Origin: Mycobacteriales bacterium
Lineage (GTDB): Bacteria > Actinomycetota > Actinomycetes > Mycobacteriales > SCTD01
Assembly: GCA_030697205.1 (NCBI GenBank)
Contig: JAUYQP010000034.1
Span: forward strand, 62,001-126,000
Direction: 5' to 3'
DNA: 64,000 nucleotides
The notes under the pieces are model-generated. The model was not told where the DNA came from. It was given only the letters and a program-made list of their open reading frames with translations, and ran no database searches. How positions within the stretch are numbered: position 1 is the first letter of the stretch; each line of letters starts with the position of its first letter. Below are positions 1,428 to 39,005 of this stretch, one piece after another. A program made the position numbers and the translations under genes.

Positions 1428-1456
1428 TGGTAGCCTCATGGTATGAGAACTACCAT
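1427..1456 (+). promoter_or_regulatory. operator dyad and leaderless promoter of the vapBC-type pair
   Basis: A nested dyad is centred on the promoter and start codon. ATGGTAG (1427-1433) mirrors CTACCAT (1450-1456), and CTCAT (1435-1439) mirrors ATGAG (1443-1447). The -10 box TAGCCT (1431-1436) lies 6 nt before ATG 1443. A dimeric AbrB-fold antitoxin bound here would block its own transcription, as is usual for this class of toxin-antitoxin operon. Confidence 0.75.
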
Positions 1457-1676
1457 CGACAGGGCCGGACGGCTCGTCGTGCCCAAGGAGCTACGTGACC
1501 GCATAGGGCTCGTCCCGGGCGAGGTCGAGATCGAACTCGACGGCGCAGCGCTGCGGCTCGCGCCCGTCGCCGCTGACCGCGTGCACGAGATCGGTGGCCG
1601 CCTCGTCGTGAGCAAGACCGGGGTGCCGTTGTCCGACGACGACGTGCGGGCTCTGCGCGATGCCGACCGTCGCTGA
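1443..1676 (+). CDS. AbrB/MazE-fold antitoxin (VapB type)
   Basis: This 77-aa protein has the swapped-hairpin AbrB DNA-binding domain at its N-terminus: RTTIDRAGRLVVPKELRDRI is the characteristic loop and strand pattern. The C-terminal part (SDDDVRALRDADRR) is the acidic toxin-binding tail. It overlaps the PIN-domain toxin gene by 17 bp. The operator dyad covering its start indicates autorepression. By family knowledge the C-terminal tail neutralises the RNase. Length and order (antitoxin first) are typical. Confidence 0.85.
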   Translation: MRTTIDRAGRLVVPKELRDRIGLVPGEVEIELDGAALRLAPVAADRVHEIGGRLVVSKTGVPLSDDDVRALRDADRR

Positions 1677-2097
1677 GCTGCCGCTGCCGCTGCTGCTACT
1701 GGACACCAGCGTCGCCGTCCCGTGGCTCGTTGAGGATCACGAGAGCCACGTCGCCGTCGTGGAGGCTCTGCACAGCCGCGTCCTGGGGCTCGCCGGCCAC
1801 GCCGCTTTCGAGACGTTCTCGGTCCTGACACGGCTGCCCGGCGACCAGCGGGTCAGCCCCGCCGTGGCCGCTGCTTTGCTAGCGCGCGGCTTCCCCGAGA
1901 CCCGCCACCTCAGCTCCGAGCGCTCGACAGCCCTCCTCGACTCCTTCAGCCGACTGCGGGTCTCGGGCGGTTCGGTCTACGACGCCCTCGTCGCAGCCGC
2001 GGCCGTGGAGCACGGCCTCACGCTTGTCAGCCGCGACGCGCGTGCGCTCGCGACCTATGACGCCGTGGGCGCAGAGGTGCGCTACCTCGACGGCTGA
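1660..2097 (+). CDS. PIN-domain ribonuclease toxin (VapC type)
   Basis: This 145-aa PIN protein shows the acidic metal-binding residues in order: Asp15 in LLLDTSVAV, Glu51 in HAAFETFSVLTRLP, an Asp in VYDALVAAAA and an Asp in LVSRDARAL. These coordinate Mg/Mn for endonucleolytic cleavage of RNA, often tRNA, in the VapC family. It is translationally coupled to the upstream antitoxin by a 17-bp overlap. All four sites are intact, so an active toxin is likely. The RNA target cannot be read from sequence. Confidence 0.85.
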   Translation: MPTVAELPLPLLLLDTSVAVPWLVEDHESHVAVVEALHSRVLGLAGHAAFETFSVLTRLPGDQRVSPAVAAALLARGFPETRHLSSERSTALLDSFSRLRVSGGSVYDALVAAAAVEHGLTLVSRDARALATYDAVGAEVRYLDG

Positions 2098-26548: not shown

Positions 26549-26953
26549 CTACTCAGCGGAGGGGGGGAAGTATCCGCTGACCGGCGGGACCGCCTGCACG
26601 CCCTCCTGCGCTCCCCACGGCGACGGGGGTGCGACCGGCACAGCGATCAGTGGGGCGGCCGGTGCGTCCGGCTGAGCCGCGAGCTCCCGCGCGGCAGCGC
26701 TCTCGAGAGCCTCGAGCCGACGATCGATCCCCTCTGCCAGCTCCAGCAGCCGCGCCATCACCTCGGACTGCTCGCGGGCGAGCAGGTCGAGCTTGAGCTG
26801 CACGCGACCCAGGGCACCCAGCAGCGCAACCGTCTGCCCGCGCGCGACTTCGGTGCTGTCGTAGTCCGACGCCGTGGGCGCGGCAGCCGATCCCGAGGCG
26901 GGGGCGGGACGCCCGCGGCGCGCCGGCGCGAGTCCTTCATCGGGTCGTGTCAT
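26549..26953 (-). CDS. small coiled-coil protein of unknown function
   Basis: This 134-aa protein has a low-complexity N-terminus, a central heptad-like segment (LKLDLLAREQSEVMARLLEL then IDRRLEALESAA) and a Pro-rich C-terminus. ATG 26953 overlaps the stop of the long coiled-coil gene by 4 bp. The two products probably act together, perhaps as partners of one structure. No family is recognised. Confidence 0.6.
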   Translation of the reverse strand: MTRPDEGLAPARRGRPAPASGSAAAPTASDYDSTEVARGQTVALLGALGRVQLKLDLLAREQSEVMARLLELAEGIDRRLEALESAAARELAAQPDAPAAPLIAVPVAPPSPWGAQEGVQAVPPVSGYFPPSAE

Positions 26954-28590
26954 GCCTCGTCCTCCCGGGACGTCGGGGACTTCCGTGGAGTACGACGGGG
27001 ACGAGCCGCCTGAGCGGGCGCGTCAGGCGTGGCTGCCGGTGCTGTGGGGCGCACCCGTGCGCGGGTCGCTCGCTTGGGCGCCGGTTCGGTGACTGTCGGC
27101 TCCGGCTCGATCAGGTCAGGCAGGACGTCGCCCGACGGATCAGCGGGCTCCTCAGATCCCGCGGGCGGCGACGCGGCGATGCCCCGTCGCACTCGGTCGA
27201 GCAGCCCTCGGCCCTTGACCCCGCCGCGGGACAGGACGTCCTCCAGCACTCGGACGAACTCGTCCGCGCGGCGGCTCTCGAGCTGCTCGTCCCGGGCTTC
27301 CAGGCGACGGGTCTGCGCGCCCAGCGCGTCGATTGCCGCGGCCAGTCCTGCCTCGACGCGCCCGGCCAGCTCGTGGATCTGCTGGCGACCACGAGCCGTG
27401 GCCGCTGCGTCGCGCTTCTCCTGTGCCCTCAGCCGAGCGCGCAACGAGCCCAGGAAGGCCTCGGAATCCTCGGCCAGCGACGCGGCCCGCTGTTCGGCGT
27501 CTTCCACCAGGGCGCGCGCGGCCTCCGCCATGCTGTGAAGGGCCTCAGCCGCACTGTCCGCCGACTCCTGTCGGCTTCGGATCATCCGCTGCTCGGCGTC
27601 CAGCGCCGCCTCGTCGACCGCGGTGATGGCGAACGACGCAGCCGCCTCGAGTCGGGTCGCCGCCTCGATGCCGGCCAGGCGGATCTGCTCGGCCAAGGCC
27701 GCGCCGGTGCTGCGCAACGCGGTGTCCGAGATCGCCGCCTGCGTCTCGAGCACCGAGCTGACGGCGTCCAGGCGCTGGACCGTGACCTCGGCGGCCCACT
27801 CGAGGGCTGTGCGGGCGTCCTCCGTCCGCACAGCCGCCGCCTCGGCGATGGCTGTGAGGGTCGACGTCGTGAGCCCGAGCTGCGTCAGCACCTGCTGGCT
27901 GCTCTCGGCGGCGTCGTCACGCAGCGCCTGGGTGCTGTCGGTGACCGCAGCCGACAGGCGCTGGGCCAGCGCCTCGATGTCCCCGCCCAGCTGCCAGCGC
28001 AGGTCGGCGCGCATCGCCTCGACCGCCTCGGCAGTGCCAGTCCCCAGCACCTCGGCCACCGCGCCGAGCCGCACCGCCGCGTCGTCGGTGACCTGCCGAG
28101 CAGTTGCGTCGAAGTCCTCGGCGAGAGCTGCCGCCGCGTCGACGATCCGTTGCGCCGTCGCATCAGCGACGGCACACAGGTCGGCCGTGGCATCACCGAC
28201 CTGCCCGGCGGCCGCGTAGGCGGCACCGGCGAGCGAGACGGTCGCCTCCGAGACCTGACGTGCGGCTGCACCCGTGGCCGAGCTCGTGTGCTCAGCCAGC
28301 TGCCGAGCAGCCTGTTCCGCTGCCACCGCCACGGCGACCGCAGCAGCTGCCACCTCGTCAGCGGCTGCGGCGGCCGCACCCTCGGCGGCCACAACAAGAG
28401 CGGCCGTCGCCTCGCTGACCTGCTGGCTGTGCCGTCGGATCGCGGCAGCCGCCGTCTGCAGGGAGTAGAGGGTCTCGGCCTGTCCGTCGGCGACCTGATC
28501 GCGCAGGACGTCGACGAGTCGATCCCCGGCCACCCGGATCTGGCTCATGACTGCGGCCGCCTGCTCCTCGAGGGGGGGCGCTTGGTGCAT
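26950..28590 (-). CDS. long Ala-rich coiled-coil protein
   Basis: This 546-aa protein starts at ATG 28590 with GGAGGA upstream. It is almost entirely Ala/Glu/Asp/Arg-rich helix, with degenerate 11-residue periodicity of the apolipoprotein or methyl-accepting-protein kind, such as QVSEATVSLAGAA and AARQVTDDAAVRL. No transmembrane helix is seen. The C-terminal 90 residues are Pro/Arg-rich and basic. It could be a cytoskeletal, polar or chemosensory-like scaffold. The neighbouring diguanylate cyclase shares its promoter region in opposite orientation. Function is not assignable. Confidence 0.65.
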   Translation of the reverse strand: MHQAPPLEEQAAAVMSQIRVAGDRLVDVLRDQVADGQAETLYSLQTAAAAIRRHSQQVSEATAALVVAAEGAAAAAADEVAAAAVAVAVAAEQAARQLAEHTSSATGAAARQVSEATVSLAGAAYAAAGQVGDATADLCAVADATAQRIVDAAAALAEDFDATARQVTDDAAVRLGAVAEVLGTGTAEAVEAMRADLRWQLGGDIEALAQRLSAAVTDSTQALRDDAAESSQQVLTQLGLTTSTLTAIAEAAAVRTEDARTALEWAAEVTVQRLDAVSSVLETQAAISDTALRSTGAALAEQIRLAGIEAATRLEAAASFAITAVDEAALDAEQRMIRSRQESADSAAEALHSMAEAARALVEDAEQRAASLAEDSEAFLGSLRARLRAQEKRDAAATARGRQQIHELAGRVEAGLAAAIDALGAQTRRLEARDEQLESRRADEFVRVLEDVLSRGGVKGRGLLDRVRRGIAASPPAGSEEPADPSGDVLPDLIEPEPTVTEPAPKRATRARVRPTAPAATPDAPAQAARPRRTPRKSPTSREDEA

Positions 28591-28677: not shown

Positions 28678-30183
<1,506 letters not shown>

Positions 30184-32138: not shown

Positions 32139-33206
32139 TCAGAGCTCGCCGGGGCGACCCAGGGCATGGCCCTGCCCGAGGTCCACGCCGAGCGCGCGCA
32201 GGGCGTCGCGCTGCCGGTCGGACTCCACGTGCTCCGCGACCACGAGCGCACCTGCCCGATGGGCGACCTCCACCAGGCCCCTGATGACCGCCGTCGCCCC
32301 GACCGACGGGAGCCGGCGCACCAGCCCGCCGTCGATCTTGATGTAGTCCGGGGTCAGGCTGGCGAACCACTGCAGCGAGCTGTAGCCCTCGCCCAGGTCG
32401 TCCAGGGCGACCTGCAGGCCACGGCTCCGCGCCTCCGCGAGGACCTCCGCGAAGCGCTGCTCGTCGGAGAGGGGACGCCGCTCGGTGACCTCCAGCACCA
32501 CGCGCGACAGCGGCACCCCGGCGTAGAGCGCGGTGCGCTCCAGCAGGGTGAGCAGGCGTCGCAGCGCGTCGGCATTGGAGGCGCTGGTGTTGACGAACAG
32601 CCGCCCCTCGCCGAGCCCGTCCGCGGCCCCCGAGATCGCGGCCACGACGGCGCGCGCGTCCAGCTCGTCGTGCAGCGCCACGGACCCGGCGCCGCCGAAC
32701 AGGGCGCCGGTGTCGAGCAGCCGGCCGTCCAGCCGGACCCGCAGCAGCGCCTCGTGGCCGTGGACCGCACCGTCGACGAGGCTGACGACGGGCTGGTACG
32801 CCGCGGACCACCTGCCCCGCTCCATCACGGCAGCCAGCGCACCGCCCTGCTCGTCGAGCAGGTCGGCCAGCGACCCGGCCGACATCGCCCTGACGACGGC
32901 CGACGTACCGATCGGCCCCGGGGGCAGGACGACGGCGCGGACGTGCGTGGCGCGCTCGTGGTTCACCAGCAGCGACAGGCGCTCCAGCAGCACGTCGAGG
33001 TCGGGGACGCTGAGCAGCAGCGCCTCCTCGACCACCCGGCTCCCGCCGCCCGGCAGGGCGGCCACAGCGTGCCGGACCGCCGTCACCGTGGCGGCGTCCA
33101 CGCCGCTGAGCAGGACGCTCACCGGCGACCCATCCGGGGAGCCGCCGACAGGCACCAGCGGCCTCCTCGTCGACGGGATCGCCGTCGCCGAGGCGTCAGC
33201 AGGCAA
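32139..33206 (-). CDS. EAL-domain c-di-GMP phosphodiesterase
   Basis: This 355-aa protein has an N-terminal region of about 120 residues resembling a DICT-like or sensor module, then an EAL domain. The EAL motif is GHEALLRVR; metal and catalytic residues follow in VLEVTER, LDDLGEGYSSLQW, YIKIDGG and VAEHVES. The DDFGTG motif is altered to DDLGEG but both Asp remain. The protein is therefore probably active in c-di-GMP hydrolysis. The start is read as TTG 33206, overlapping the upstream gene by 11 bp. Confidence 0.83.
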   Translation of the reverse strand: MPADASATAIPSTRRPLVPVGGSPDGSPVSVLLSGVDAATVTAVRHAVAALPGGGSRVVEEALLLSVPDLDVLLERLSLLVNHERATHVRAVVLPPGPIGTSAVVRAMSAGSLADLLDEQGGALAAVMERGRWSAAYQPVVSLVDGAVHGHEALLRVRLDGRLLDTGALFGGAGSVALHDELDARAVVAAISGAADGLGEGRLFVNTSASNADALRRLLTLLERTALYAGVPLSRVVLEVTERRPLSDEQRFAEVLAEARSRGLQVALDDLGEGYSSLQWFASLTPDYIKIDGGLVRRLPSVGATAVIRGLVEVAHRAGALVVAEHVESDRQRDALRALGVDLGQGHALGRPGEL

Positions 33207-33510
33207 GGGGCAGGGCGGGGACGACGCGCCTCCAGGTGACCGCGTCCTCGCCGCAGGCGCGGGCGTCGAGCCAGGTCAGGTGCTGCTGGACCGCGTCGCC
33301 GAAGGGCTCACCCGCCGCACCGAGCAGGTGCAGGGCCGACAGGTCGGGGTCGAGGGCCCGCAGGACGACGATCTCGCGGTGGAGCGCAGCGAGCGCCGGG
33401 TCGAGCGGCAGCCCGGACGGTCGACCGCACAGCGCTGCCGCGAGGCAGGCGTGGTCCGCGTCGAGGCCCCGGACCAGTGCGGCCAGGGACCGCAGCAGGT
33501 CGCCGCTCAT
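33196..33510 (-). CDS. unknown ~105-aa helical protein, partner of tiny copy B
   Basis: This 104-aa protein, start ATG 33510, is predicted mostly helical: LLRSLAALVRGLDADHAC, LDPALAALHREIVVLRAL, and HLTWLDARACGED. The gene at 34551-34892 encodes a clear paralogue (LDTDHVRVAA, LDPALAAL, HLDWLDAR), in the same position behind a tiny gene. Its ATG overlaps the stop of tiny copy B (ATGA) and its 3' end overlaps the EAL gene. A signalling role beside EAL and response-regulator genes is plausible but unproven. Confidence 0.65.
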   Translation of the reverse strand: MSGDLLRSLAALVRGLDADHACLAAALCGRPSGLPLDPALAALHREIVVLRALDPDLSALHLLGAAGEPFGDAVQQHLTWLDARACGEDAVTWRRVVPALPLAC

Positions 33511-33617
33511 GCTGTGCGCTCCTCGAGCAGGGTGAGCTCGGAGGACAGGCGCGGGTCCACCAGGTCGAGCAGCAGCGTCAGCGGTACGCCGTGCTCCAGC
33601 AGATCGAGGACGTTCAC
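33507..33617 (-). CDS. tiny conserved-looking protein, copy B
   Basis: This 36-aa protein from GTG 33617 has GGAGG 5 nt upstream; in-frame ATGs at 33641 and 33650 would lengthen it. It starts Met-Asn like copy C, and its core is DLLEHGVPLTLLLDL. The stop overlaps the start of the partner gene (ATGA), exactly as in copy C. The protein is too short for a classical domain and may be a helix that binds the partner. Family unknown. Confidence 0.6.
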   Translation of the reverse strand: MNVLDLLEHGVPLTLLLDLVDPRLSSELTLLEERTA

Positions 33618-33899
33618 GACCACCTCCACATAATGGGACATGTCGAGCATCCCCCAGTTCGACGGTCATTGCGTCAGCCACTCAGCCGGACCTGATTTCG
33701 CCACCTAGGGGTGGTCTGGCAGGTCGACCGGACACGTCGGCGCTAGTCCGTTTGGCCCTGGCAGTTGACCAGTGACGGCAACACCTTTGACATCAGACCG
33801 TGGCAATCGGGGCGGCACATGGCGTAGAACCTCACCCCGAGTCCGTGCCACTATTATGTCGCCACGACAGTCACCCAGCTCGAGAGCAAGGTCACCACC
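33618..33899. promoter_or_regulatory. divergent intergenic region with possible response-regulator promoter
   Basis: TATTAT (33852-33857) is a likely -10 for the rightward response-regulator gene. I do not see a clear leftward promoter for tiny copy B. No gene is visible. Confidence 0.3.
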
Positions 33900-34526
33900 A
33901 TGGCCAGCACACGCGGCCTCGTCGTCGACGACCACACCTACATGCGCGCCGCGATGGTCGACTGCCTCCAGCAGGCGGGGCTGGAGCCCGTCCTCGACGC
34001 CGACACCCTCGCCGCGGCGCGCGAGATCGCGGCGGGCCCTCCGGTCGGTCTCGTCGTGCTCGACCTCCGGCTGCCCGACGGGTCGGCGCTCGAGATCATC
34101 CCCACGCTGCGCGCGACCGGGGCTCGGGTCCTGTGCTTCACCAGCGCCGACGACGGCTACAGCGTGCGCTCGGCCTACGCCGCCGGGGCGAGCGGCTACC
34201 TGCTGAAGTCCGCAGCGCACGACACGGTGACCCACGCGGTCCGCGAGGTGCTCGCCGGCCGCGTCTACGCCGACCCGACGGTCGCCGCCCTGCTCGTCCA
34301 GGGCGTGCAGGAGGCGCCGAAGGGCGACGGCACCCCGCTCACCCGGCGCGAGATCTCCGTGCTGGAGCTCGTCGCCGAGGGCCTGTCCAACCCCGAGATC
34401 GCCGAGCGGCTCGCCATCGCGCCGCTCTCGGTCAAGAGCCACCTGGCCAGGATCGGCCGCAAGCTCGGGGTCGGCGACCGCACCCAGATGGTGACCGCCG
34501 CGATGCGCGCCGAGGTCCTGCGCTGA
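33900..34526 (+). CDS. NarL/LuxR-family response regulator
   Basis: This 208-aa protein has a receiver domain with acidic pocket VVDDH (Asp10/Asp11), phospho-acceptor Asp55 in VVLDLRLPDG, Ser/Thr in CFTSADD and Lys in GYLLKSA. The LuxR-type HTH is LTRREISVLELVAEGLSNPEIAERL then VKSHLARIGRKL. It should be phosphorylated by a HisKA_3 kinase; the kinase at 35191-36162 is the obvious partner. It sits between two copies of the tiny-plus-partner gene pair, which makes those pairs candidate regulon members. Confidence 0.87.
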   Translation: MASTRGLVVDDHTYMRAAMVDCLQQAGLEPVLDADTLAAAREIAAGPPVGLVVLDLRLPDGSALEIIPTLRATGARVLCFTSADDGYSVRSAYAAGASGYLLKSAAHDTVTHAVREVLAGRVYADPTVAALLVQGVQEAPKGDGTPLTRREISVLELVAEGLSNPEIAERLAIAPLSVKSHLARIGRKLGVGDRTQMVTAAMRAEVLR

Positions 34527-34550
34527 GCCGGGCAGCCTCGCCGAGGGCGG

Positions 34551-34892
34551 TCAGCCCCGGCCGGTGAGCAGGTCGACGGCGACGCGGTCGAGTTGCAGCG
34601 GGATCGCCTCGCCGAGGGTGGCGGGTCGCGCGGAGGTGCGGCGGGCGTCCAACCAGTCGAGGTGCGCGACCACGGCCGCGCCGTGCTCCACCGCCGCCTC
34701 GGCCAGCAGCCCGAGCCCGGTGAGCCCGGGCTCGCGGTAGCGGCGCGACACCAGGTCGGCGCACAGCGCGGCGAGCGCCGGGTCGAGCGGGGGCTGCGCG
34801 ACCAGGTCGCCGGCCAGCACCGCGGCGACCCGAACGTGGTCGGTGTCGAGGTCGCGGACGGCTGCAGCCATCGCCTGGAGCAAGTCGCTCAT
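34551..34892 (-). CDS. unknown ~113-aa helical protein, partner of tiny copy C
   Basis: This 113-aa paralogue of the protein at 33196-33510 shares LLxxMAAAVRDLDTDH, PPLDPALAAL, HLDWLDAR and a similar spacing. ATG 34892 overlaps the stop of tiny copy C by 4 bp. It is mostly helical, with a C-terminal extension not found in the other copy. It converges on the response-regulator gene 24 bp away. Function unknown. Confidence 0.65.
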   Translation of the reverse strand: MSDLLQAMAAAVRDLDTDHVRVAAVLAGDLVAQPPLDPALAALCADLVSRRYREPGLTGLGLLAEAAVEHGAAVVAHLDWLDARRTSARPATLGEAIPLQLDRVAVDLLTGRG

Positions 34893-35035
34893 GACGCGTC
34901 CTGGCTCGGCCCGTCGCCCAGCGCGCCCTTGCCCTCGGCGAGCAGCTCGTCGGCGCTGGGCAGCCGCCAGGCGAGGTCGATCAGCAGGGTCAACGGGACA
35001 CCGGCCGCCAGCAGTCGCATCGCTCGCTCGTTCAC
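34889..35035 (-). CDS. tiny conserved-looking protein, copy C
   Basis: This 48-aa protein from GTG 35035 has GGAGGA upstream. It begins Met-Asn as copy B does, with core RLLAAGVPLTLLIDL and a charged Gly-rich tail. ATGA overlap with the partner gene repeats the arrangement of copy B. The open reading frame continues upstream of the GTG, but only this start has a ribosome site and matches the other copies. Confidence 0.62.
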   Translation of the reverse strand: MNERAMRLLAAGVPLTLLIDLAWRLPSADELLAEGKGALGDGPSQDAS

Positions 35036-35190
35036 GGACGGTTCCTCCCGGTCTGCGTCGTTCTCTCCCTTGACTATCGCCGCAGGAGGGGGGCCATCAC
35101 AGACCCGAGCAGTCGGACCTGAGCGGGTGGGATGACCCCTACCGGTTGGGGCCGGCCGCGTCCGGCCCGCTGCTCCGTACGGCGCAGCGC

Positions 35191-36162
35191 TCAGGCGGAC
35201 TGCAGGCGCGCGTGGGCGCCACCGTGCGCCAGCGGCACCCGGAGCCGGACCGTCGTGCCCTGCCCGGGCCGCGACGCGATCTCGACGCGGCCACCAGCGA
35301 GGCGGGCCCGCTCCCGCGCGATCCGCAGGCCGACGTGGCGCCCGAGGCTGCTGTCGACCTCGTCGAGGCGGAACCCGGGGCCGCGGTCGGAGACGACGAC
35401 CTCCAGCTCCGCGCCCGCGAGGTGCACGTCGAGCCGCACCCCGACGCCGTCGGCGTGCTGGACGGCGTTGAGGAGCGTCTCCTGCACGAAGCGGTACGTC
35501 GTCGTCGCGAGCGTGCCCGACATCGGCACCGACACGTCGGGCCACGTCACGTCGACGTGCACGGCGTAGCGGGCACGCAGCTCGGCACACAGGTCGGCGA
35601 TCGCCGCCGCGAGGTCGCCGCCCGCGAGCTCCGGCGGTCGGATCCGGGCGAGCACCGCCCGGAGCTGGTCCTCGGCCTCGCGGACCGTCTCGATGCCCCC
35701 GAGGCCACCCGCGGGCAGCTCCCTGTCCAGCTGGAGCAAGGCCTGCGCGAGGGTCTGCGCCACCGTGTCGTGCAGCTCCCCGGCCAGCGCGGCCCGGGTC
35801 GCCTCCTCCGCACGGACCAGCTCGGCGAGGATCCGGCCGGTGTTCTGGGTGGCGCTCGAGACGCTCTCCCGCGAGGCCCCCACCACCCGCTTGATGACCT
35901 CGGCGTGGCCCGTGTCGCGGATGACGCGGGAGTGCAGGGCGAGCAGCTCTCGCGAGACGGCGGGCGTGCGCCGGCCGACGGCCCTGACCTCCCTCGCGAC
36001 CGTGGCGCCGCCGGCGAGCGAGACCAGCGCCGCGGCGCTCGCGACCAGCACGGCGTGGTGCGGCAGCAGCACGACCCCCAGCAGAGCGGCACAGGCCGGC
36101 CCGGCGACCAGCAGGGCGAGCGGGACCCGACCGAGGAGCTGGCGCAGCGTCAGGGCGGTCAT
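35191..36162 (-). CDS. sensor histidine kinase, HisKA_3 family
   Basis: This 323-aa protein from ATG 36162 has two transmembrane helices (about 11-30 and 36-55). The HisKA_3 dimerisation motif contains the phospho-acceptor His in ALAGELHDTVAQTLAQ. The HATPase domain has TYRFVQETLLNAVQHA (N box) and VVVSDRGPGF (G1 box), with a later GLRIARERARLAGG. It should pass phosphate to a NarL-type regulator, most likely at 33900. ATGA overlap ties it to the membrane sensor gene upstream. Confidence 0.87.
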   Translation of the reverse strand: MTALTLRQLLGRVPLALLVAGPACAALLGVVLLPHHAVLVASAAALVSLAGGATVAREVRAVGRRTPAVSRELLALHSRVIRDTGHAEVIKRVVGASRESVSSATQNTGRILAELVRAEEATRAALAGELHDTVAQTLAQALLQLDRELPAGGLGGIETVREAEDQLRAVLARIRPPELAGGDLAAAIADLCAELRARYAVHVDVTWPDVSVPMSGTLATTTYRFVQETLLNAVQHADGVGVRLDVHLAGAELEVVVSDRGPGFRLDEVDSSLGRHVGLRIARERARLAGGRVEIASRPGQGTTVRLRVPLAHGGAHARLQSA

Positions 36163-37490
36163 GCCGACTGCCAGCGACCGATGACGACGACGTCGTCCGG
36201 CTCCTGCTCGGCGGGCGACACGAGGTCGGCGAGGAAGGAGCTCAGCTTCTCCTCCGCCGCGAGCAGGTCGTCGGCGAGCGACGTGCGGTGCCGCAGCGAC
36301 ACGACGGTCGCGTCGGTCTCGAGGCGCTGGCGCACCAGCCGGACCGCCTCGAGCGCACCGGCAGCGTCGCCACCGCGGTCGCGCAGGTCGACCAGGGGCG
36401 GGTCGCCGGCGCCCTCCTCGCGGGCCTTCAGCCAGCCCGAGGTCTCGGCGGCGAGGGTCGACAGCAGCACCAGGTCGCTCTGCCGGAACGGCTCTTGCGA
36501 GGGGTCGCGCCACACGCCGATCAGCGCACTCGGGTCGGTCCCGCCGACCGCGATGCCGATCCAGTGGCCGCGCAGGGCCCCGTCCGGCAGGGCGAGCACG
36601 CAGGCCGGCCAGCCGGCCCGGAGGACCTCGTGGGACACGCTCGTGTGGGTCACGGTGCCGTCGACGTCGCGCGTGCGGTTGAGGCGCATGCCGTCCAGGG
36701 CGAGCAGCTCGGTCCTCGAGGCGGCAAGCAGCTCCCGCACGGTGCGGGCGACGAGGGCGGCGCTGTGGTCGCCGCGTCCGGCGTACAGCTCCTTGGCGTG
36801 CCCCGCGAGCGCGAGGCTCACCGACGAGCGCACCCGGCGTCGCGTCGACTGCTCCTGCGACCACAGGATGAGCACCGCGGGGGCGGCGAAGGCCGGGAGC
36901 ATCGCGGGGTCGAGCTCGAAGGTGTGACTCGCGAGCAGGGCCGTCGAGCTGATCGCGACGACGTGGAGCAGCCACGGCCAGCTGGCGCCGGCCAGGGGGC
37001 GGAGGTTGCCCTGCCCGGTGGCGACCCCGAGGACGAGGCGGACCAGCCCGTCGTTGACGAGGACGAAGACCACGAGGCCGAGGATGGTCCCGGCGTCGCC
37101 CGGCACCCTCTCTGCGATGACGCAGGCGAGGGCGGTCGCCACGCCGAACTGCGCGGCGTTGAAGGCGAGCTTGTACGCCGGGAGCTGCCTGCGCACCTGG
37201 GCGAGCACGACAGCCGAGACGAGCACGAGGACGATCCACCGTCCGGGTTCGAGGGCGAGCGCCACGACGAGCGGGCCCTCGGTGAGGGTGAAGGACTGGC
37301 GCTCACCGCCACGGCTGACGTGCACCGGCCGCAGCTCGGTCACCGCGCAGGCGGCCCCGAAGAGCAGCAGGCCGACGATCGAGCCGTGGGCGCCCTCGAT
37401 GGACAGGACCAGGGCGACAGCAGCGAGGCCGGTCGCGACGGTGAGCGCCGCGACCCCCCTGACGCGCTGCGCCTCGGTCCGCAGGGGCAT
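36159..37490 (-). CDS. multi-pass membrane sensor with GAF-like C-terminus
   Basis: This 443-aa protein from ATG 37490 shares its A with the stop of the subtilase gene (TGATG). The N-terminal half has about seven or eight transmembrane helices, resembling MASE-type sensory membrane domains. The C-terminal half (about 230-430) looks GAF-like (SHEVLRAGWPACVLALPD, GHWIGIAVGGTDPSALIGV). It has no kinase, cyclase or HTH domain, so it may present a signal to the coupled histidine kinase. Confidence 0.65.
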   Translation of the reverse strand: MPLRTEAQRVRGVAALTVATGLAAVALVLSIEGAHGSIVGLLLFGAACAVTELRPVHVSRGGERQSFTLTEGPLVVALALEPGRWIVLVLVSAVVLAQVRRQLPAYKLAFNAAQFGVATALACVIAERVPGDAGTILGLVVFVLVNDGLVRLVLGVATGQGNLRPLAGASWPWLLHVVAISSTALLASHTFELDPAMLPAFAAPAVLILWSQEQSTRRRVRSSVSLALAGHAKELYAGRGDHSAALVARTVRELLAASRTELLALDGMRLNRTRDVDGTVTHTSVSHEVLRAGWPACVLALPDGALRGHWIGIAVGGTDPSALIGVWRDPSQEPFRQSDLVLLSTLAAETSGWLKAREEGAGDPPLVDLRDRGGDAAGALEAVRLVRQRLETDATVVSLRHRTSLADDLLAAEEKLSSFLADLVSPAEQEPDDVVVIGRWQSA

Positions 37491-38887
37491 CAGCGCAGCG
37501 ACCAGGAGGTCGCGGACCAGGACGTGGCGGACCAGGACGTCGCCGACCAGGAGGTGGCGGACCACGAGGTCGCCGACCAGGACGACGCCGACCACGAGGT
37601 CGCCGACCAGGAGGTGGCGGTGGGTGCCGGCTCGCCGGCCGTGCCGCTGCCGTCCCACGCGGGCTGGTCCGCCGCGCGCCGGACCTCGGTCGGGATGCGC
37701 AGCAGGCCCGCGCCGTCCGCGGTGCCGGACAGCGGGCTGGCGGCGTGGGCGAAGCTGACGCGCACGTCGTCGGGGCTGAGCCCCTCCCTGCCGGAGAGGA
37801 AGACCGCGACGGCACCCGCGGCGACCGCGGTCGCCTGGCTGGTGCCACTGCCGCTCCACAGTCCGGAATCGGTCTGCGCCTCCGGGTTGCTCTGCGCGAT
37901 CCGCGACGACGGCGGGAGGACCGACAGGACCGAGACGCCGGGCGCGACGAGGTCGGGGCGCTGCAGCCCCGCGACGACGGCGGAGCCGCTGAACGACGCG
38001 GTCGACGCCGCCGTCTGCGTGGTGTCGGCCGCGCCCACCGCCATGAGGAGCGGGTCCTGGCCGGGGTCGCCGACCTGCGAGGGGTCGTTTCCGGTGGCGA
38101 CCGCCACGACGATCCCCGCGTCGCGCAGGCGCTCCGCCCCATCGGTCAGGGGGTCGCGCCCGTAGCCCTCCTCGGGGCGCGCGGCGGACAGGCTGAGGGA
38201 GACGACGTCGATGTCGAGGCGGGCGCGGTTCTGCACCACCCAGTCGAAGCCGTCGAGCACGCGCGAGAGGCTGGTCGAGCCGTCAGCGGTCGCGACCTTG
38301 ACGTCGACGACGCGGGCCGCCGGCGCGACGCCGACCTGCATGCCCTTCCACTTGCCGCCGGCCACCAGGTTGGCCATGAACGTGCCGTGCCCGTGCCCGT
38401 CGCGCGGCCCGTCGCCCTCACCGGAGGTGTCGGCGCCGTCCACGAGCCGGCCGCTCTCGCGGGTCAGCAGCGCGGTGTCGGCGACTCCGGTGTCGATGAC
38501 GGCGACCGTCACCCCGCTGCCCGCGTCGCCCTGCCCCGCGGTGCCTCCGACGGCGGTCGGCGCGAGGACGCCCTCGCCCTTGCCCCCGTTGCCGGCGACG
38601 GAGAGCATCCGGTCGGGCGCGACCCCGCGCACCCCCGGCACCGACCGCAAGGACAGCAGGTCCGCCGGAGCGGCGTCGACCACGACCGCACCCACAGCCG
38701 TCAGCTCCCGGGCGACCGTGACCCCTGCCGGCAGCGCGCCGGTGTCGAAGCCCGGCGCGACGGACAGCACGAAGCGGGCACTGCCCGCGGCTCCGGCCTG
38801 CGGGCGCTCCGGCTGCGCGACCGACGGCGTGGCCGACAGGGCCACTGCGAGGAGACCGGCGGCGCCGGTCAGCGGTACGAATCGCAC
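37490..38887 (-). CDS. secreted S8 family serine protease (subtilisin-like) with C-terminal repeat
   Basis: This 465-aa protein from GTG 38887, with GGAG 8 nt upstream, has a signal peptide (LLAVALSATPSVAQ) and an I9-like propeptide. The catalytic domain has Asp in VAVIDTGVAD, His in GHGHGTFMANL, the oxyanion Asn in VAVATGNDPSQ and Ser in SGTSQATAVAAG. The end is a pentapeptide repeat ATSWS, seven to eight copies. All catalytic residues are present. Coupling to a sensor and kinase gene is unusual for a subtilase; it may activate or cleave an extracytoplasmic signal. Confidence 0.86.
   Translation of the reverse strand: MRFVPLTGAAGLLAVALSATPSVAQPERPQAGAAGSARFVLSVAPGFDTGALPAGVTVARELTAVGAVVVDAAPADLLSLRSVPGVRGVAPDRMLSVAGNGGKGEGVLAPTAVGGTAGQGDAGSGVTVAVIDTGVADTALLTRESGRLVDGADTSGEGDGPRDGHGHGTFMANLVAGGKWKGMQVGVAPAARVVDVKVATADGSTSLSRVLDGFDWVVQNRARLDIDVVSLSLSAARPEEGYGRDPLTDGAERLRDAGIVVAVATGNDPSQVGDPGQDPLLMAVGAADTTQTAASTASFSGSAVVAGLQRPDLVAPGVSVLSVLPPSSRIAQSNPEAQTDSGLWSGSGTSQATAVAAGAVAVFLSGREGLSPDDVRVSFAHAASPLSGTADGAGLLRIPTEVRRAADQPAWDGSGTAGEPAPTATSWSATSWSASSWSATSWSATSWSATSWSATSWSATSWSLR
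37493..37620 (-). repeat. tandem 15-bp repeat encoding Ser-Trp-Ser-Ala-Thr units
   Basis: About eight near-identical 15-bp units make up the 3' end of the subtilase gene. Exact repeats of this kind can change copy number by slippage. Trp-rich terminal repeats are seen in actinobacterial subtilases, but their function is unknown to me. Confidence 0.75.
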
Positions 38888-39005
38888 GGGAATGCTCCAA
38901 CTTCGAGGGGTATGGCAGGCCCGGCAACACTCCCAGCACCGAGGCCTCCCGCAGCAGGTGCAGCCGACCACCGCGCCACTGCTGCGACCGGAGCAGTCAG
39001 CCGGC

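Follow-up and report, generated by a model that had tools for sequence, protein, structure and literature searches.

The window, the whole 64-kb stretch of DNA analysed here, carries two copies of a two-gene unit in which a very short gene overlaps the gene of a larger, predicted helical partner. The unit is derived, in this lineage specifically, from a more widespread family of microproteins. Its small protein belongs to a broad, previously uncatalogued family that is widespread in little-known actinobacteria, and the partner is restricted, among the genomes searched, to two copies in the window genome, the sole representative of its genus in the collection. A conserved small-protein family missing from four profile libraries is brought to light here, and the duplicated, coupled units form a concrete place to test its role, because the neighbouring gene probably encodes an interaction partner.

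Layout of the duplicated unit

Units A and B are both encoded on the minus strand, a detail absent from the earlier note. In unit A, the small gene (33507–33617, −) begins with GTG behind a GGAGG ribosome site and encodes a protein of 36 residues, VNVLDLLEHGVPLTLLLDLVDPRLSSELTLLEERTA; its predicted helical partner (33196–33510, −) has 104 residues. The small gene of unit B (34889–35035, −), also with a GTG start, encodes 48 residues, VNERAMRLLAAGVPLTLLIDLAWRLPSADELLAEGKGALGDGPSQDAS, with three short helices predicted, and its partner (34551–34892, −), likewise predicted helical, has 113. Within each unit the small gene and the partner gene overlap by ATGA. The start contexts are alike in both units, GTG-AAC following GGAGG (GGAGGTGGTC-GTG in A, GGGAGGAACCGTCC-GTG in B). 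Between the units, a LuxR/NarL-type response regulator occupies positions 33900–34526 of the plus strand.

The members of the two units are paralogous. The partners share 47% identity (Smith-Waterman score 176, shuffled sequences averaging 34; z about 22), and the small proteins are also 47% identical (z about 8 against shuffles). At the DNA level the units are 61% identical, with the ATGA overlaps kept in both duplicates; given this value and the partner identity of 47%, the duplication is not recent. The dN/dS between A and B, about 0.7, is compatible with relaxed constraint. The description in the earlier note, of a two-gene unit present twice with ATGA overlaps, common GTG-AAC starts behind GGAGG, paralogous members and a LuxR-type regulator flanked by the copies, is confirmed by the verified coordinates and overlaps, by inspection of the start sites and by the alignment scores, and the regulator is real.

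A shared element lies ahead of both units. The window contains just two perfect copies of the string CAGGTCCGRCTG, placed 66 and 75 nt ahead of the two start codons and represented by CAGGTCCGGCTG at 33683–33694 (−) before small protein A and by CAGGTCCGACTG at 35110–35121 (−) before small protein B. The perfect 13-mer TCAGGTCCGRCTG has three sites in the 4.0-Mb genome and is intergenic solely before units A and B, the third site falling inside a predicted gene. Because this other perfect site is intragenic, the element is specific to the units and not a general promoter; a short string common to duplicates could also be a remnant of the duplication. Two other candidate regulatory sites were rejected. 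The heptamer TAGGGGT adjoins the shared element of unit A (33706–33712, +) and that of unit B (35135–35141, −), and its four occurrences in the window against 1.8 expected are weakly above chance, with the inspected matches in relatives mostly inside genes. A TCCGNNCGG-type operator, considered as a site shared with the regulator promoters of relatives, is not enriched in the regions compared, which are perhaps offset by N-terminal extensions of the regulators.

A class-wide family of small proteins

The pattern G.PL.LL.DL occurs exactly three times in the six frames of the 64 kb: in unit A, in unit B and in a third, solitary member of the family at 242–361 (−), not listed in the earlier note, with the sequence VMDLLESGIPLSLLLDLAFGPHSEELLRAEAADTAPDAA. 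A chance origin of the core from codon bias in GC-rich DNA, as considered in the earlier note, is ruled out by simulation and by codon-position conservation. When the core pattern is made a little stricter, it has 0 occurrences in 3.84 Mb of Markov-simulated sequence with the oligonucleotide content of the window. Identity at the three codon positions across the small family is 0.63/0.72/0.53, against 0.36/0.31/0.43 by chance, and selection therefore acts on the protein.

The family consensus is LLxxG(V/I)PL(T/S)LLLDLxxPxGPxSxExxxxE, and both A and B contain the defining core LLxxG[VI]PL[TS]LL[LI]DL followed by the conserved S and E. Residues L9, G12, P14, L15, L17, L18, D20, L21, S27 and E34 are invariant in 30 aligned members, A and B included. 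The small proteins are acidic, with a pI of 4.1–4.4. In the unit proteins the maximum 19-residue hydropathy is 1.22 and 1.53, with no transmembrane segment apparent, and the helices predicted for small protein B as a monomer extend over at most 11 residues. Neither the small protein nor the partner looks membrane-embedded, and a membrane role, one of the options in the earlier note, is left unsupported by these hydropathy values.

A profile built from the four clear copies of the window genome, used for the search of the class, scores small protein A at E 6.8e-17, and the profile used within the window's own family scores it at E 4.4e-11; both profiles contain small protein A or its paralogues. 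The family is found in about 39 of the 297 class genomes sampled, from about 17 families (E ≤ 1e-4, the numbers varying with the E-value cut-off), and in each of the 24 genomes sampled from the window's own family, often with at least two copies each. The carriers include uncultured Frankiales, Frankiaceae, Nanopelagicales and other actinobacterial assemblies. Outside the class, none was found in a phylum-wide sample whose sensitivity was limited by the scoring of only 18 candidates per genome. The exact core pattern is absent from viral contigs, and a single plasmid match of the small protein was taken as chance. No profile in Pfam, NCBIfam, PHROGs or PADLOC matches the small protein above its curated cut-off, sequence and fold searches of the PDB gave no significant match, and a literature search for the core string returned no paper. 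The absence from the libraries is probably due to the shortness of the protein and to its occurrence mostly in uncultured lineages.

Most members of the family stand alone. At 54 of the 72 distinct small-family loci the downstream gene is convergent, and a same-strand gene follows within 30 nt at 2 of the 72, with gene boundaries at loci outside the window taken from a simple codon-based gene finder. The neighbours are diverse overall, and most copies adjoin unrelated metabolic genes. Conserved synteny sets apart two solitary lineages in the window's family: members of one adjoin aminodeoxychorismate lyase (pabC-like) genes, and those of the other are located close to the genes of an acyl-CoA dehydrogenase and an AMP-ligase-like protein. 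The window genome carries both, at 242–361 in the window and on contig C6; the gene at 242–361 is divergent from a thioredoxin-like gene, a neighbour common to the pabC lineage in relatives. A divergent form of the family, with the core GIPPSLLCDL, is present on contig C40 of the window genome (L121:2557-2817, G000:C40), where there is a 4-nt overlap with the stop of a PD-(D/E)XK nuclease gene, and a similar GIPPSLL form occurs in at least one relative (L114). The window also holds an AbrB-like and PIN-like gene pair at 1443–2097 (+), with an overlap of a few bases and, by its sequence appearance, probably of the VapBC toxin-antitoxin type, as well as an Rfam match to the actinobacterial sRNA Ms_IGR-5 at 2355–2565 (+; 72.3 bits, E 4.7e-14).

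The partner protein

Searches of the window's own family, with the partner protein or with a two-member profile, return no convincing partner, and none is found in 394 class genomes, a GTDB contig scan or plasmids; diverged relatives may escape such searches, A and B themselves sharing just 47% identity. Weak matches, both in the class genomes (best E 3.6e-4) and in the own family, were set aside as noise. In the own family, the top two non-self matches, from genomes G005 and G004, fall within SDR-type enzymes, and those ranked third and fourth within other long genes. Pfam, NCBIfam, PHROGs and PADLOC give no match above cut-off, the best Pfam match of partner B being ptaRNA1_toxin (E 0.01, 16.4 bits, below the cut-off of 27). 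A monomer model predicts partner B to be helical with modest confidence (pLDDT 64). No significant sequence or fold match of the partner was found in the PDB; in the PDB searches of small protein and partner, resemblances to RbcX, DnaG-C and DnaB-N were dismissed at E > 0.8.

That the small protein and the partner represent undescribed families, as the earlier note had supposed, agrees with the lack of matches in the four libraries. Its further proposal of a conserved module formed by the two does not hold: the small protein, though widespread, is encoded by a solitary gene elsewhere, and the partner was found in no other genome. The genome search that it recommended, for the core with an overlapping helical partner, yields a widespread core and a partner pair found just in the window genome.

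Signalling neighbourhood and possible function

The units are surrounded by signalling genes. On the side of unit B, a histidine kinase (35191–36162, −) carries a HATPase_c domain and a HisKA_3 match just below cut-off, and its gene is overlapped by that of a membrane or sensor protein (36159–37658, −; start uncertain) with weak, below-cut-off likeness to MASE9. Downstream of unit A, an EAL-domain phosphodiesterase (32139–33206, −) starts with TTG at 33206 or GTG at 33155, so that its start either overlaps the stop of partner A or falls 40 nt beyond it on the same strand. A GGDEF gene is located at 28678–30183. The sensor-like gene is adjoined by that of a subtilisin-like protein with a long C-terminal WSATSWSA repeat (37490–38971, −), and a 546-residue, alanine-rich, long-helical protein with sub-threshold Pfam matches only is encoded at 26950–28590 (−).

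The regulator between the units is convergent with unit B and divergent from unit A, and consequently shares a transcript with neither. Together with the kinase and the sensor-like gene, it makes up an additional copy, specific to the lineage, of a system that belongs to the core of the family. The core copy in the window genome lies on contig C30 (G000:C30); the two regulators are 52% identical. The inspected core-system loci are without small-partner units, and the units and the duplicated two-component system thus occur together. Of the link to two-component and c-di-GMP control suggested earlier, the setting is real, with kinase, regulator, EAL and GGDEF genes present, but the link is plausible at the window locus only, most other copies of the family lying beside unrelated metabolic genes. 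In a relative (G023) a small-family gene follows an EAL gene by 100 nt, and GGDEF appears in two other scanned neighbours of small-family genes; the association of the family with c-di-GMP is suggestive, without statistical footing. Downstream of the EAL and small-family genes in the same relative, a 230-residue protein without a Pfam match is encoded (L123:4489-5181).

The best explanation, put forward tentatively, is that the family consists of acidic, soluble proteins whose short helices surround an invariant G-x-P turn, and that each pair in the window forms a soluble complex tuning the adjacent signalling proteins. From a class-wide actinobacterial microprotein, mostly encoded by a solitary gene, one copy would have gained a downstream helical partner gene in the window lineage. 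The small protein and the partner would be produced by termination-reinitiation at ATGA, a form of translational coupling, and would then assemble. The pair would have been duplicated as a unit beside the duplicated two-component system, and the common upstream element, kept in both copies, may co-regulate them. The complex is hypothesized to contact the adjacent lineage-specific kinase and response regulator by protein-protein interaction, and that of unit A may also act on the EAL enzyme encoded downstream. Assembly of the pair is made plausible by the ATGA overlaps, because four-nucleotide overlaps couple translation and are over-represented in genes that encode subunits of heteromeric complexes (PMC10666635).

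A precedent for a signalling target is offered by DUF1127 proteins, among them the Agrobacterium SDPs and E. coli YjiS, which resemble the small family in having fewer than 60 residues and several paralogues per genome. Small (<50 aa), multi-copy DUF1127 proteins bind the sensor kinase PhoR (PMC12501420), and by analogy kinase binding by a small protein seems feasible here. In contrast to the acidic proteins described above, however, DUF1127 proteins are arginine-rich and positively charged; the small family is not a member of DUF1127 and has no Pfam match. The setting is also analogous to that of MgrB and SafA, small regulators of sensor kinases, in that a small protein lies near or is controlled by a two-component system. 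MgrB is a membrane protein (PMC8404706), whereas the small proteins here have no transmembrane segment.

The explanation by a tuning complex is weakened by the solitary members, which lack a partner and adjoin unrelated genes; since they function in this setting, the basic function of the family need not be signalling. Counting against it as well are the separate transcripts of the regulator and the units, the modest confidence of the partner model and the A/B dN/dS of about 0.7. In a more far-reaching version, which is rather unlikely, the G-x-P microprotein would be a general interaction module recruited by lineages that add private partner genes, and the pair in the window would directly gate the duplicated two-component system and the c-di-GMP phosphodiesterase. 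Such a gating pair, if real, would represent a novel type of signalling adaptor, a soluble microprotein.

The serious rival, not much less probable than the tuning complex, regards the location as incidental. The solitary members would hold a general cellular role, and A and B would be drifting, lineage-specific derivatives that landed in an island of signalling and polysaccharide synthesis. Such drift is in keeping with a partner that is found nowhere else and diverges fast, and a general role with the diversity of the neighbours and the recurrence of two syntenic solitary lineages across the window's family. It accounts less readily for overlaps, start contexts and upstream elements that are kept in both copies, or for the co-occurrence of the units with a duplicated two-component system.

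A toxin-antitoxin-like pair, in which the small upstream protein would neutralise a toxic partner of about 105 residues, is a quite improbable reading of the sequence. The units share with type II modules two small genes in the same order, shorter first, with a 4-nt overlap, and the sub-threshold ptaRNA1_toxin match of partner B points the same way; yet no toxin or antitoxin domain is recognisable, with no match above noise in PADLOC, NCBIfam or PHROGs, and the supposed antitoxin is a widespread, usually solitary gene of vertical descent in which no DNA-binding domain was found, while the partner was seen neither on plasmids nor in any other genome searched. Least probable, and largely refuted, is a leader (uORF) that controls translation of the partner in cis and encodes a functionless protein: the short ORF does lie directly upstream and overlaps the partner start, but many families of the class have kept its peptide at loci without a coupled downstream gene, as the convergent neighbours at 54 of 72 loci illustrate, and codon-position conservation marks selection on the protein.
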